Assembly (NCBI GenBank): GCA_021848345.1
Contig: JAJZUV010000009.1
Span: forward strand, 1-64,000
Reading direction: 5' to 3'
Source: Pseudomonadota bacterium
GTDB lineage: Bacteria; Pseudomonadota; Gammaproteobacteria; Burkholderiales; Burkholderiaceae_C
Length of the DNA: 64,000 nt
The translations under genes and the position numbers were made by a program. The notes beneath the pieces are model-generated. The model searched no databases, was not told the DNA's origin, and saw nothing but the letters and a program-made list of their open reading frames with translations. Below are positions 664 to 5,218 of the stretch, in pieces; the stretch's first letter is position 1, and the number at the start of each line of letters is the position of its first letter.

Positions 664-1230
664 ATGACCGACACCGCCGAGGGCTCCACCTCCACCAAGC
701 CCTACCTGTTGCGCGCCCTGTACGAATGGTGCTGCGACAACGGCTTCACGCCGCATCTGGCGGTGCGGGTCGACTCCAGCGTGCGCGTGCCGCGCGAGCA
801 CGTGCGCAACGGCGAGATCGTGCTGAACATCAGCTTCGGCGCGACCAGCGGTCTGAACATGGGCAACGACGACATCAGCTTCCGCGCCCGCTTCGGCGGC
901 GTGGCGCGCGACATCGTCGTGCCGGTGAGCCACGTCACCGCCATCTACGCCCGCGAGAACGGCCAGGGCATGGCCTTCCCGGTGAGCCAGCCCGAGGCCG
1001 AGGGGCAGGGCGGGGGCGAGGCGCGGCCCGGCCCGCATGTCGAAGGCGAGCCCGCGCCGCAACCCGCCGCCGCAGTCCCGGCGCCCGCGGCGCCCGCCGC
1101 CGGCACCCCGCGCCTGCATGCGGTGCCGCCTGTCGGCTCCGAGGCGCCGGCGGCGCGCAAGGCACCGGGCGACGACGAGCCCGAGCCGCCTCCCCGCACA
1201 CCGGGCTCGCATCTCAAACGAGTCAAGTAG
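664..1230 (+). CDS. sspB: ClpXP protease specificity-enhancing factor SspB
   Basis: SspB is the adaptor that brings ssrA-tagged stalled-ribosome products to the ClpXP protease. The conserved substrate-binding domain fills residues 1-105 (PYLLRALYEWC, TPHLAV, ISFGATSGL, DISFRARFGG). A flexible proline/alanine-rich linker follows, ending in a short basic-hydrophobic tail (HLKRVK) that corresponds in place to the ClpX-docking motif. A GGAGG Shine-Dalgarno lies just before ATG 664. The gene is probably co-transcribed with sspA. The long, low-complexity linker is normal for the family. Confidence 0.95.
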   Translation: MTDTAEGSTSTKPYLLRALYEWCCDNGFTPHLAVRVDSSVRVPREHVRNGEIVLNISFGATSGLNMGNDDISFRARFGGVARDIVVPVSHVTAIYARENGQGMAFPVSQPEAEGQGGGEARPGPHVEGEPAPQPAAAVPAPAAPAAGTPRLHAVPPVGSEAPAARKAPGDDEPEPPPRTPGSHLKRVK

Positions 1231-1257: not shown

Positions 1258-1333
1258 GCCGCTTTAGCTCAGCTGGTAGAGCAACCGCCTTGTAAGCGGT
1301 AGGTCATCCGTTCGATTCGGATAAGCGGCACCA
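1258..1333 (+). tRNA. tRNA-Thr (anticodon TGT)
   Basis: The 76-base gene folds as a standard cloverleaf. Acceptor strand GCCGCTT (1258-1264) pairs with AAGCGGC (1323-1329). The D arm is GCTCAGCTGGTAGAGC. The anticodon stem CCGCC/GGCGG-type arm carries the TGT anticodon, which reads ACA. The T arm has loop TTCGATT. Discriminator A1330 is followed by an encoded CCA (1331-1333). It lies 27 bp after sspB. I found no duplicate of its 3' end nearby that would mark an integration site. Confidence 0.95.
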
Positions 1334-1355: not shown

Positions 1356-3089
1356 TCAGGCGCTTTCTGGCGGCTGCGCCGGGGGGCGTTCGCGTACGCG
1401 GCCCTTGGCAAGCTCGTAGATCCTGTCGGCACCGCCATAGCCGGCGGATCCATGCGCGACGGCCACCACGGTGGGTACGCGCCGGCGAATGCGCGGAATC
1501 AGGCGCTCGGCCTGGTCGGGGGCGATGGCCGACGTCGCTTCGTCGAGCAACAGGATGCGCGGATGCCGCAGCAGCGCCCGGCCGATGGCGATGCGCTGCC
1601 GCTGTCCCCCCGAGAGCTCGCGGCCCATCACGCCCACATGGCGCCGCAAGGCGATATCGACGTCGCGCGGAGCTCCCCCCAGTTCGTCGAGTTCGAGGTC
1701 CCGCGCCACCTGCCGCAGATCCTCCAGGGATGGCGCCTGGGCGCAGCCGTAGCCCAGGTTGTCGGCGACCGTGCCGGTAATCATCAGCGGTGACTGCGCA
1801 ACCGCGGCGACGGCCTGGGTCACCGCGGCGGATCCCAGGCCCGTGACATCCCGCCCGAGGATGCTCACCCGCCCTTGCTCGGGTGGGAGCAGGCCGAGCA
1901 TCACGAGCAGCAGCGTGGACTTGCCCCCGCCGGAGGGACCGACGAGCAGCGTGAGCTGTCCGCGCCGAGCGTCGAATCCCACGGCGTCGAGCACCCTCGC
2001 GCCGTTCAGGGACAAGACGAGGTCGCGGACCTCCACGGCCAGTTCACTCGACTGGTCGAACTCCAGCTTGCCCGCATCGGGTTCCTCGGGCAGTTCCAGG
2101 ATGCGCAGGCCGTCGCGCAGGTTGATCTCGTTGCGCTTGAAATCGGACAGGGTCGACGCCAGCACGGTGAAGGGCGAGGTCAGCGCCACCACGTAGCCCG
2201 CGACCATCGCGAAATCGCCCGCGCTCAGGGCGCCGCGCAGCGCCAGCACGGCGGCCGCCACCGTGAGTACCGTGAGGCTGGTGCCGGCGAGCAGCGCCTG
2301 GCCGGCCAGCAGCATGGCCAGTCGAACATTGCCCTTGCTCACGTCGTCGGCATGGCGCCGCAGGAATTCGCGCGAGCACGCCTGCTCCCGCGCCTGGGCG
2401 GCATTCATCTTGACGTCGAACACGAAGCCGACGCGTTCGGTGAAATAGGAGCCCAGCCGATCGGCAGCCTGGGCGACGCTGGTGTGGGCGCCCTGGGTGC
2501 GCCGGGACAGCACGACGGTTCCCGCGAATACCGCCAGCATCAAGGCGCCGAAGGCCAGGGCGTAGCGCGGGTCGATCACGCGCGCCAGCACCGCACAGGC
2601 CAGCATCCACTGGATCGCCGTGGGCAGCAGGGCCCAGAACAGGGTGTAGGTCAGGGATCCGAAGGCCGTTGCGCAGCGGTTGAACCGGGACAGCAGCGTT
2701 CCCGGGTCGATGCGAAGCACCTCGGCGTATTGCGCGCGCAGAAAGCTTGCATGGAAGGCCTGTCGGAAGGCGGCCTCGCATCGCGCCTGCGTCGATGCCG
2801 CGGCCGCGTTGCGAAGCCATTCCATCGATGCCGCGGTGCTCCAGCACACGCCGTAGGCGAATGCGAACGACAGGGCGAGCCTGCGAGCGTCGCCCTTGGA
2901 ACCAGGCCCGATGGCATCGATGGCCAGGCGCAGAAGGTACGGGATGGCCGAGTTGAGCAACGCGACGCCGGCGACGATCAGGCAGGCCAGCGCGAACTGC
3001 CGGGCGAACCCGGGATACCCCTTGCGGGCCACCGTGAACGCGAGCAGGTAGCCCTTCGCGAACCCGGAATGCGGATGCGGGCCGACCAT
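1356..3089 (-). CDS. ABC exporter half-transporter (fused membrane and ATPase domains)
   Basis: The product of about 577 residues joins a six-helix membrane domain (roughly residues 25-320) to an ATPase domain (350-570). The ATPase has Walker A GPSGGGKST near 384, a Q-loop AQSPLM, the signature LSGGQ near 492, Walker B ILLLDEATS and a switch histidine in VAVAH. There is no N-terminal C39 peptidase domain. ATG 3089 is preferred to GTG 3092. It starts about 15 bp after a PIMT-like methyltransferase gene on the same strand, so the two are probably one operon. That pairing resembles export genes of modified-peptide clusters, but no precursor or other maturase is visible. The substrate is unknown. 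Confidence 0.75.
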   Translation of the reverse strand: MVGPHPHSGFAKGYLLAFTVARKGYPGFARQFALACLIVAGVALLNSAIPYLLRLAIDAIGPGSKGDARRLALSFAFAYGVCWSTAASMEWLRNAAAASTQARCEAAFRQAFHASFLRAQYAEVLRIDPGTLLSRFNRCATAFGSLTYTLFWALLPTAIQWMLACAVLARVIDPRYALAFGALMLAVFAGTVVLSRRTQGAHTSVAQAADRLGSYFTERVGFVFDVKMNAAQAREQACSREFLRRHADDVSKGNVRLAMLLAGQALLAGTSLTVLTVAAAVLALRGALSAGDFAMVAGYVVALTSPFTVLASTLSDFKRNEINLRDGLRILELPEEPDAGKLEFDQSSELAVEVRDLVLSLNGARVLDAVGFDARRGQLTLLVGPSGGGKSTLLLVMLGLLPPEQGRVSILGRDVTGLGSAAVTQAVAAVAQSPLMITGTVADNLGYGCAQAPSLEDLRQVARDLELDELGGAPRDVDIALRRHVGVMGRELSGGQRQRIAIGRALLRHPRILLLDEATSAIAPDQAERLIPRIRRRVPTVVAVAHGSAGYGGADRIYELAKGRVRERPPAQPPESA

Positions 3090-3104
3090 CACGGCGCGCC
3101 TTGT

Positions 3105-3995
3105 TCAGCCAAGGCTCTTCGGAGATCCGCGCGCACCTCGGGGTACTTCGCGCGGCGGACTGCGCGACAGCCACCATCCCTTGCCGACACACCACGCGCT
3201 GTCGCCGGGGCGGTCATCGCGCACCAGGGAGCGAATGTCCTTCCAGCTCTCGGTTTCCAGTGCGCGGCTCAGGGCGCCCGGGTCGAGCGCCTCGCGTGCG
3301 CCGATGCAGGGCGTGAACCCCGCTCGGCCGAGGCCACGCGCCGAGTATCGGTCGGCGTCCAGGCGGGTGACTTCGAGCAACAGCCCCCACCCGCTGTCCG
3401 GTGTCAGCGGAACGATCATGCGACCCCCGGGGTTCAGCGCATCCAGCCACGCAGCCGGCAGGTCCGCCACACCGGCGTTCACGTAGACCACGTCGACACC
3501 GCGTGGCGGCGCATCGGCCGGTGCTCGCGAGAGCGCCGAGCAGGCGTGCACTTCCACGTTCGGCCAGCGCTGCAGATGCATGCGCGCCTGTCGGGCAAGC
3601 CCGGGATCCAGTTCGAACGCCAGCACCCTGCCCGCGGGGCCGACCAGGCTGGCCAGGATCGCCGTGTAGTACCCGGTCCCGGCGCCCACGTGCAGAACGG
3701 TCTGCGCGCCGCGAGGAGCCGCCGCGGCCAGGCATTGCGCGTGCAGCGAGGGTTGGCCGTTGTGGATCCTTCGCTCGAGGTCGAGCCCGACCAGGATGTC
3801 CTGATACAGCCAGCGAGGGTCCGCGTCAGGGGTGCGCACATACGCGGCGCCCGCGCAGACCCACCAGGGGCCTGGGCCCAGGTAGTCCTCGCGTGCGATG
3901 TCCGAGAAGGCCGCGATCAGGCGCTCGTCGGTCGACCCGGCGCCGTGCACGAGCAGTTTGGCAAAGAAGCTTCGATGCTGTTCTAGCGAGGCCAT
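3105..3995 (-). CDS. Protein-L-isoaspartate O-methyltransferase-like SAM methyltransferase
   Basis: The 296-residue product looks like the PIMT/PCMT family. It has the pre-motif GQPSLHAQ near 80, SAM motif I VLHVGAGTGYYTA near 100, and a later LNPGGRMIVPL segment. True PIMT repairs isoaspartyl residues, but the conserved GQTIS-type loop is altered here (GQPSL) and the N- and C-termini are longer. The gene may therefore act on a dedicated peptide substrate. Start ATG 3995 lacks a strong Shine-Dalgarno. The reading frame stays open upstream to 4343, but that part overlaps rarD and looks non-coding. The ABC exporter gene follows about 15 bp later. The link to a peptide natural product is inference only. 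Confidence 0.65.
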   Translation of the reverse strand: MASLEQHRSFFAKLLVHGAGSTDERLIAAFSDIAREDYLGPGPWWVCAGAAYVRTPDADPRWLYQDILVGLDLERRIHNGQPSLHAQCLAAAAPRGAQTVLHVGAGTGYYTAILASLVGPAGRVLAFELDPGLARQARMHLQRWPNVEVHACSALSRAPADAPPRGVDVVYVNAGVADLPAAWLDALNPGGRMIVPLTPDSGWGLLLEVTRLDADRYSARGLGRAGFTPCIGAREALDPGALSRALETESWKDIRSLVRDDRPGDSAWCVGKGWWLSRSPPREVPRGARGSPKSLG

Positions 3996-4309
3996 GTCGG
4001 CACGATACCGGGATTCCTGAAGCCGATGCTCGCATCGGGGCAATCGCCTGCCGCCGTCGCATGCGATGCCGATCACGCGCCCGGCATGGCCCGGACACGC
4101 GTCGGCGGCCCTTGCGCCTCCGGGGCTCAGGATCTTGGTTCCAGCGGCGCACCGAGGCTTCTGCCCGAACGGTCGCCAGGGGGACCCGATCAGCGCTTGC
4201 GGAGGACGGTGGAACTCCGCGCGGCGTGGCTGGTCTAACAGTCGGTCGCCTGGTCCATCTCGGCCTCCACGAATTCCCTGCCGGCTCGACCTCGGATTGG
4301 AGTGCAAGG
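3996..4309 (+). other. Gene-poor divergent region
   Basis: These 314 bases separate the minus-strand methyltransferase gene from the plus-strand rarD. I looked on the minus strand for a short precursor-peptide gene. The ATG-initiated frames there close within a few codons or merge with the methyltransferase frame, so none is supported. Two minus-strand frames are stop-free through the region, which at this GC content is not evidence of coding. No clear promoter hexamers stand out. Confidence 0.5.
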
Positions 4310-5218
4310 ATGAAACCCGCCTCGAGCATGTCGCGCGAATCACCAGGGATCGCTTGTGCCTGCGCGGCCTACGCCATTTGGGGTCTTTACCCGCTGTATT
4401 TCAAACTGCTCCAGCATGTTCCCGCGCTGCAGATCCTCGCGCACAGGGTGATCTGGTCGCTGCCGCTGGCGCTGGCCGCCGTGGCCTGGAGCGGCGACTG
4501 GCGCGGACTGGCCCGGCTGCGCGAAAGGCCCGCATGGCTTGCGCACTTCGGTGCCGCCGGGCTGCTGCTGGTGTGCAACTGGGGGGTGAACATCTGGGCG
4601 GTCAACCACGGACATGTCGTCGAGGCCAGCCTGGGCTATTTCCTGAATCCGCTGCTGACCATCGGCCTGGCTACCCTGGTGCTGCACGAACCGCTGCGCC
4701 GGGCGCAGCGCGTGGCCATCGCCCTCGCCGTGGCGGGAGTCGCGTGGATGGGTGTGGCCCTGGGCGTGGCGCCCTGGATCGCGCTTGCGCTTGCAGCCAG
4801 CTTCGCCGGCTACAGCCTGTTGCGCAAGACCGCGCCCCTGGGGGCCTTCGAGGGCCTGGCGCTGGAGACGGCCCTGGTGTTTCCGCTGGCCATCGGGTAC
4901 CTGGCCTGGCTCCCCGCCGGGCAGGCGAACGTGTTCCTCGCCTCGACACCCGGCGAACGCCTGCTGCTGGCCGCCGCGGGGCCGGTCACCACCATCCCCC
5001 TGCTGTTGTTCGCGGCCGGGGCCAGACGCATCCCGCTGGCCATGCTCGGCATCCTGCAGTACGTCACGCCGACCATGCTGCTCGTGCTGGGCGTCGCGCT
5101 GTACCGCGAACGATTCGATATGGCGCACGGTGTCGGGTTCGGCCTGGTGTGGGTCGGCATCGCCATCTACCTGGGCGATCGCCTGCTGCCGCGCAGGGAC
5201 GCACATCGATTGTCGTAG
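4310..5218 (+). CDS. rarD: EamA/RarD family inner-membrane permease
   Basis: The 302-residue protein is a ten-helix drug/metabolite transporter of the RarD subfamily. It shows the N-terminal AYAIWGLYPLYFKLL signature, HRVIWSLPLA, NWGVNIWAVNHG and the ESALGYFLNP-like segment ASLGYFLNPLLT. Two EamA repeats cover most of its length. The substrate of this family is not settled (the E. coli rarD locus is tied to chloramphenicol sensitivity). ATG 4310 has GGAG at 4299-4302. An in-frame ATG at 4328 is the alternative. The gene is not clearly in an operon with its neighbours. Confidence 0.85.
   Translation: MKPASSMSRESPGIACACAAYAIWGLYPLYFKLLQHVPALQILAHRVIWSLPLALAAVAWSGDWRGLARLRERPAWLAHFGAAGLLLVCNWGVNIWAVNHGHVVEASLGYFLNPLLTIGLATLVLHEPLRRAQRVAIALAVAGVAWMGVALGVAPWIALALAASFAGYSLLRKTAPLGAFEGLALETALVFPLAIGYLAWLPAGQANVFLASTPGERLLLAAAGPVTTIPLLLFAAGARRIPLAMLGILQYVTPTMLLVLGVALYRERFDMAHGVGFGLVWVGIAIYLGDRLLPRRDAHRLS

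Follow-up and report, generated by a model that had tools for sequence, protein, structure and literature searches.

The window analysed here comprises the initial 64 kb of a contig of 94 kb (JAJZUV010000009.1) from the draft genome of a Burkholderiales bacterium (G000; 3.26 Mb, 93.7% complete), and near its start we found a gene for an enzyme resembling protein isoaspartate methyltransferase (PIMT) next to a gene for an ABC half-exporter. About 6% of this genome is unseen, which bounds the genome-wide negatives given below. The PIMT-like gene (3105..3995, minus strand; 296 aa, P0001) and the exporter gene (1356..3092, minus strand; 578 aa, P0002) are both open full-length frames, the first with a Pfam PCMT domain (4.6e-20) and the second with the Pfam domains ABC_membrane and ABC_tran. 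Their spacing is operon-like, with 12 nt between the PIMT stop (3105) and the GTG start of the exporter (3092) on the same strand; an alternative exporter start is an ATG at 3089. A tRNA-Thr(TGT) gene (1258..1333, plus strand) lies 22 nt from the exporter stop, the two converging, and beyond it is the housekeeping gene sspB (664..1230, plus strand), which served as a synteny anchor. On the other flank an unstranded gap of 314 nt (3996..4309) separates the PIMT gene from a divergent rarD-like gene for an EamA transporter (4310..5218, plus strand). Gene calling between the end of sspB (1230) and the start of rarD (4310) gave no protein gene besides these two. The preliminary description of this DNA, which had reported a PIMT-family gene and a single-polypeptide exporter adjoining on one strand beside tRNA-Thr, was right about the intact frames and their coordinates. 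The GC content at third codon positions was 0.82 for the PIMT gene and 0.86 for the exporter gene, as compared with 0.86-0.94 in six neighbouring genes, so that a clearly foreign origin of the pair is unsupported by codon composition.

The window PIMT carries the S-adenosylmethionine (SAM) motif VGAGTGY and, at the position of the canonical ISQP, the sequence IHNGQP (INNGQP or INNGEP in the rest of its family). Gly replaced the Ser of ISQP in all 58 aligned members of this family, while five Pcm-like sequences had SQP (three) or SKP or LAP (two). The Ser of ISQP is presumably a substrate contact in PIMT, and the Gly suggests an altered substrate contact. Compared with the five Pcm-like sequences, the family has about 16 extra aa ahead of the core, and its C terminus is extended by about 50-60 aa that include the motif WCxGxGWWLS (WCVGKGWWLS in the window copy). 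The AlphaFold model was confident (predicted local distance difference test score, pLDDT, 93.5). In a re-alignment of the list returned by Foldseek, which covers the families in that list, the best structural match was the PIMT of Thermotoga maritima (1dl5; Z 27.1 over 238 residues, with alignment ends at model residues 7 and 280), tied with 2yxe (Z 26.5). Among the 50 structural matches listed only the alignment to 1dl5 reached model residue 280, its last aligned residue, and the alignments of canonical PIMTs among the top matches stopped near residue 235. The window enzyme differs, however, from that of T. maritima in sharing only 21% identity and in having an extension about half as long. 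Five PCMT matches were present in the window genome, among which the window PIMT scored 72 bits and three others 172, 132 and 101 bits; these higher scores indicate that better Pcm candidates exist elsewhere in the genome. The NCBIfam scores of the window PIMT were all below cut-off (FxLD 79.3, PRK00312 63.6 and graspetide methyltransferase 62.5 bits), and for one relative (L040) PRK00312 was the best-scoring model.

Relatives of this enzyme are scattered. In a set of 120 related genomes including that of the window, seven others had a PIMT match of the same kind (50-67% identity, in G070 split into two pieces), and within the genus the gene was present in 5 of 28 genomes with the window genome counted. 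A profile search (E 1e-40) detected it in 14 of 399 sampled family genomes, again including that of the window; the family samples, taken from a larger set, lacked most genomes of the genus (e.g. G013, G018 and G027), so that these do not enter the tallies. A scan of 84,980 species yielded 228 relatives, and the best 80 of these, which we kept as loci, came mostly from Alpha- and Betaproteobacteria and Acidobacteria; a single record was titled Deltaproteobacteria and another Granulosicoccaceae. Plasmid records with a match numbered 423, many of them to canonical Pcm; 93 covered at least 80% of the query, and the best 60 of these were mainly from Rhizobium and Agrobacterium. This is the distribution of an accessory gene. 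Judged by its sequences, the family is a well-defined one of about 280 aa whose members are mostly solitary. It formed one clade in both of our trees (support 100/99 and 100/100), apart from the canonical Pcm sequences, which formed their own side (99/97 and 100/99), and apart from six actinobacterial sequences of the type found with ribosomally synthesized and post-translationally modified peptides (RiPPs), namely two tgmC, two fxlM and two preceded by a small gene. The window PIMT grouped in both trees (100/100) with its nearest relatives L036 (67% identity) and L037 (65%), and these belonged to a genus clade of five PIMTs (95/88 and 90/80) that may represent a Thiomonas-type group. Three loci carry a second handle in our data (L047 = L036, L046 = L037 and L053 = L041).

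For the solitary members of the family we found no common partner. Clustering of open reading frames within 5 kb of the 80 loci recovered only common families at varying distance and strand, plus synteny among close relatives. By our own reading of the proteins, the commonest neighbours were a LysR-type regulator (14 loci), a short-chain dehydrogenase (11) and an MFS-like protein (9), and the most widely syntenic one was a 166-aa gene upstream on the opposite strand in seven Bradyrhizobium-type loci. Comparison of flanks by tblastx (2 kb each side, E 1e-6) showed anything shared in only 4 of 105 pairs from 15 Burkholderiales loci, three of these being the ATP-grasp loci described below, and matching pairs in other groups were mostly from one genus or close relatives. 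A conserved partner was rejected on both grounds. Some individual neighbourhoods are nevertheless worth recording. On an Agrobacterium pAt plasmid (L197, 4986-5852) a family PIMT directly follows three small genes of unknown function near vgrG and a DUF2169 gene in a type VI secretion locus. On a conjugative plasmid of Pandoraea faecigallinarum (L195, 4160-5882) it lies 79 nt downstream of a gene for a 2-oxoglutarate and Fe(II) dependent (2OG-Fe(II)) oxygenase. In L040 (8313-10292, genome G032) the gene after it, on the same strand, is an asparaginase by our reading and may be there by chance.

Three of the five members of the genus clade, L036, L037 and, one branch further out, L041, encoded an ATP-grasp protein directly upstream of the PIMT on the same strand. 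These proteins matched best to TIGR04187, 'ATP-grasp ribosomal peptide maturase' (1e-53, 2e-50 and 8e-49; all below the family cut-off), followed by the models MvdC and MvdD. About 60 nt upstream of the ATP-grasp gene in L036 and L037 is a frame of 94-99 codons, a precursor candidate, whose two versions align without gaps, are 59% identical and both end in LGSLxPFPPDY; similarity of the two loci runs slightly upstream of the frame and then fades. The ratio of nonsynonymous to synonymous substitution rates (dN/dS) between L036 and L037 was 0.33 for the PIMT and 0.34 for the ATP-grasp, as compared with 0.68 for the small frame. The latter likely codes for a protein, although a value of 0.68 is no proof. 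Precursor candidate, ATP-grasp and short PIMT thus make up a candidate three-gene operon in L036 (1369-3677) and L037 (11086-13406). The first two genes had a GC content of 0.53-0.56 against 0.69 and 0.67 for the respective loci, and were therefore probably acquired. In L041 a 56-aa frame lies upstream with nothing clear in common with those of L036 and L037, as compared by eye. A weak phmmer match to ATP-grasp in another locus (L068, 6.6e-5) disappeared with a profile search.

The order of these operons is that of two annotated tgmABC clusters on Streptomyces plasmids, where a precursor gene is likewise followed by ATP-grasp and PIMT, and the TIGR04187-type ATP-grasp directly upstream of the PIMT is a further likeness to the PIMT-containing tgmABC graspetides (graspimiditides, 'group 13'). 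There are differences as well. The PIMTs described here have about 280-296 aa, as opposed to 372-389 aa in tgmABC clusters, and the C-terminal trait of RiPP-associated PIMTs (PAMTs), more than 100 aa mostly with WXXXGXP, is absent, its place being taken by the shorter WCxGxGWWLS extension. The hosts are Burkholderiales, whereas 99% of 1326 tgmABC-type clusters are from Actinomycetota and the few others from Chloroflexi and Acidobacteria, according to a review (PMC13001092); on that figure a Burkholderiales equivalent would be an extension. The window itself lacks both ATP-grasp and precursor. It resembles imiditides and pamtides in that the PIMT is the sole modifying enzyme present, but differs from them in the missing precursor and in that its family is not nested with the two Streptomyces PIMTs preceded by a small gene. 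The latter (L199, 3522-4591, and L201, 3493-4591, both on plasmids) are 306-aa proteins encoded immediately downstream of peptides of 44-56 aa, which is an imiditide or pamtide layout. A Legionella adelaidensis plasmid (L207, 2319-6984) encoded three tandem peptides of 57-58 aa with similar leaders, then a match to the ATP-grasp query (tblastn 2e-32, no Pfam match), a protein of unknown function, HlyD and a peptidase-domain ABC transporter; this looks like a graspetide-type cluster.

The exporter pointed to a different peptide class. It has membrane and ATPase domains and no peptidase domain in the Pfam output. Among 14 genomes searched, a 94% identical but truncated copy was present at the same locus of the sister species (G027), and the congener G011, whose genome showed no family PIMT, had a copy of 37% identity that is divided between two frames. 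In the family sample (399 genomes, G027 not among them; E 1e-48) matches were confined to the window genome and G011; in a class sample (369 genomes, E 1e-44) the window genome contributed a further exporter (29%), and otherwise only G629 (36%, partial) and G612 (28%) passed. The best plasmid match was from Rhizobium leguminosarum (33.6% identity), where the exporter gene comes straight after those for a cyclase of asparagine-synthase type (PF00733; NF033561 below cut-off) and for a lasso B2 protein (NF033537, above cut-off). The surroundings were inspected in 4 of 30 plasmid records: three were lasso clusters, the Escherichia coli and Pantoea matches being annotated beside lasso B2 genes, and the fourth (Salmonella) was unannotated. 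With the membrane domain alone the three lasso-cluster exporters scored 165, 109 and 108 bits, as against at most 46 for generic exporters, and a tree separated the window exporter, the two G011 pieces and four plasmid sequences from 11 generic sequences (100/100). We therefore regard the window exporter as apparent kin of lasso-cluster exporters, few other peptide exporters having been included in tree and comparison. The kinship is not to McjD in particular: like McjD-type exporters it is a half-transporter without peptidase domain, but among solved structures McjD itself matched the membrane domain weakly (E 0.016) and Atm1-type exporters more strongly (1.4e-10), and no lasso B or C gene accompanies it in the window. 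A sequence search of the PDB with the whole exporter was dominated by P-glycoproteins and uninformative. A lasso-peptide-like cluster was also seen at about 5877-7993 of L233 (G017:C26), where an asparagine-synthase-type cyclase comes after a PF13471 protein; this Thiomonas-type genome has a family PIMT on another contig.

Partners of either kind are missing around the window pair. The ATP-grasp query found only a 71-aa match (1.1e-4) in the window genome, and neither the precursor candidate of L037 nor the lasso B2 protease domain PF13471 had a match there at E 0.1. Within the window, phmmer searches for lasso B and C proteins and for an ATP-grasp of graspetide type were negative, and an ATP-grasp remnant was rejected (best tblastn E 0.36 over the whole window, none in 3996-4309). 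The earlier observation that no precursor, protease or cyclase is visible agrees with these searches. It had also been proposed to look for short precursors in 3996-4309. On the minus strand no frame of at least 12 codons lies wholly inside that gap, and longer frames, which run through it, were not tested as precursors.

Nor is the pair conserved. None of the 80 related PIMT loci had an exporter of the window type nearby (best 112 bits, as compared with 321 for the window exporter against the R. leguminosarum lasso exporter), and no other pair was seen in the 399-genome sample. The 'operon' of the preliminary description is therefore not borne out as a conserved unit, and lack of conservation was one of the two grounds on which that description would be refuted; the peptide-tailoring affinity it proposed stands on other evidence. 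The intact pair was found only in the window genome, and a broken one at the same place in the sister species (L044 = G027:C146, 2565-3598), where sspA, sspB, tRNA-Thr and rarD have the same order. There the exporter is truncated, the PIMT has an internal deletion and a frame change, and part of the 3996-4309 gap is deleted. The same genome retains an intact PIMT-ATP-grasp operon on another contig. Over 217 codons shared with the window exporter, dS was 0.046 and dN 0.017 (dN/dS 0.38), and this low divergence suggests a recent break in G027. For the PIMT, dN/dS was 0.24 in the first 44 codons and 0.63 in the final 42; taken as a whole, the truncated exporter frame gave 0.85, a value that includes a misaligned tail after the deletion. 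Among 24 sspB loci in the genus, with flanks of about 1.5 kb or less, 20 had tRNA-Thr in the examined stretch, and this exporter stood beside the tRNA only in the window and G027. Eight other tRNA-Thr flanks contained a small gene pair resembling toxin-antitoxin (three), a transposase-like gene (one), other genes of 354-420 aa (two) or nothing convincing (two), the names being our reading of the proteins and not derived from databases. In G007 the ligase gene that comes after rarD in the window directly follows the small gene pair. The tRNA-Thr 3' flank is a cargo-collecting site in this genus.

We interpret the pair as a stranded, probably decaying, mosaic RiPP remnant in this tRNA-Thr cargo site, a reading to which we give a probability of roughly one half. 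The two genes would be accessory cargo and the surviving remains of a RiPP pathway. With SAM as the donor, the methyltransferase would once have methylated the side chain of an Asp in a cyclised precursor; attack by the adjacent amide nitrogen, with methanol leaving, would have closed an aspartimide, which may hydrolyse to isoAsp. This chemistry is proposed by analogy with RiPP PIMTs (PMC10787088; PMC13001092). The exporter would have carried the product out of the cell and may also have made the producer immune to it. We infer the RiPP chemistry, the substrate, the past joint pathway and the loss, rather than original absence, of ATP-grasp and precursor. A remnant had been one of the options named at the outset, and it is favoured by the missing maturases and precursor and by the broken sister copies of both genes.

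Several observations weigh against this interpretation. In the second tree, from which three long sequences were removed, fxlM fell beside Pcm (88/73) and the RiPP PIMTs did not form one clade. An approximately unbiased (AU) test did not reject a grouping of the family with Pcm (p 0.245), so that the family may root with RiPP PIMTs or with Pcm. The affinity to peptide-tailoring enzymes first suggested for the PIMT accordingly holds insofar as it lies outside the Pcm sequences and its nearest relatives are in ATP-grasp operons, but not to the exclusion of Pcm as the closest group. ATP-grasp was absent from the examined stretch of 77 of the 80 loci, some with short flanks, and within the genus clade L048 lacks it just as the window does. 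No exporter was seen beside the ATP-grasp operons, although two of the contigs end nearby and one has a transposase-like gene there. Finally, both window genes are full length, and the window PIMT had a dN/dS of 0.29-0.30 against L036 and L037, so that the window copies may still be used.

The first alternative is that chance brought the two genes together: a PIMT-like enzyme of the solitary kind would have landed next to a lone lasso-type exporter, which is retained because it expels foreign lasso peptides. The lack of a common partner in nearly all 80 PIMT loci, the PIMT-free G011 with its split exporter relative, and the gathering of unrelated cargo at the site fit this view, as does the self-immunity reported for McjD (PMC5641919). 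The 12-nt spacing on one strand and the peptide-pathway relatives of both halves go beyond a random pair, however, and we consider this explanation rather unlikely.

Slightly less probable still is a minimal living system, in which the PIMT modifies a linear peptide in the manner of imiditides or pamtides and the exporter secretes it, the precursor being encoded elsewhere or too short to see. Systems of PIMT plus precursor are known (PMC13001092; PMC10787088), and the intact genes, their operon-like spacing and the low dN/dS values of the PIMT against L036 and L037, of the exporter stretch shared with G027 and of the first 44 PIMT codons would all be expected of such a system. Against it stand the higher values for the last 42 PIMT codons and the whole truncated exporter frame (misaligned tail included), the lack of a precursor candidate wholly inside the gap, a genome in which nothing related to the genus precursor was detected, and the fact that the intact pair occurs nowhere else while the sister copy is dead. 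An ordinary protein-repair PIMT beside an ordinary lipid or drug exporter is improbable: the PCMT domain, the AU test and the below-cut-off NCBIfam scores, in which PRK00312 comes close to the two peptide-tailoring models and even leads for L040, would permit it, but the enzyme belongs to a clade apart with Gly at the ISQP Ser throughout, occurs patchily in genus and family and leaves better-scoring Pcm genes elsewhere in its genome.

Beyond the remnant reading, we can offer a speculative wider picture. The short Gly-type PIMT family might make aspartimide or a related modification in Proteobacteria, both in Thiomonas-type graspetide operons and as solitary enzymes, often plasmid-borne and in rhizobia, and in the window it might have joined up anew with a lasso-type exporter to form a hybrid system for export.

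The operon of the relatives and the solitary PIMT family are a more interesting result than the window pair itself. In the titles and abstract openings covered by our literature search, neither proteobacterial graspetides linked to a PIMT nor the solitary PIMT family was the subject of any paper. One large PIMT survey set aside enzymes of fewer than 300 aa (PMC10787088), and with this floor most of the solitary family would drop out. With the candidate three-gene operon, peptide tailoring by PIMTs, which has been described chiefly from actinobacteria, would extend to Burkholderiales, and the solitary enzymes define a widespread PIMT-like family. The window locus may in turn be an example of RiPP pathway decay at a cargo site next to a tRNA, the pair being intact in one of two sister species and disrupted in the other.

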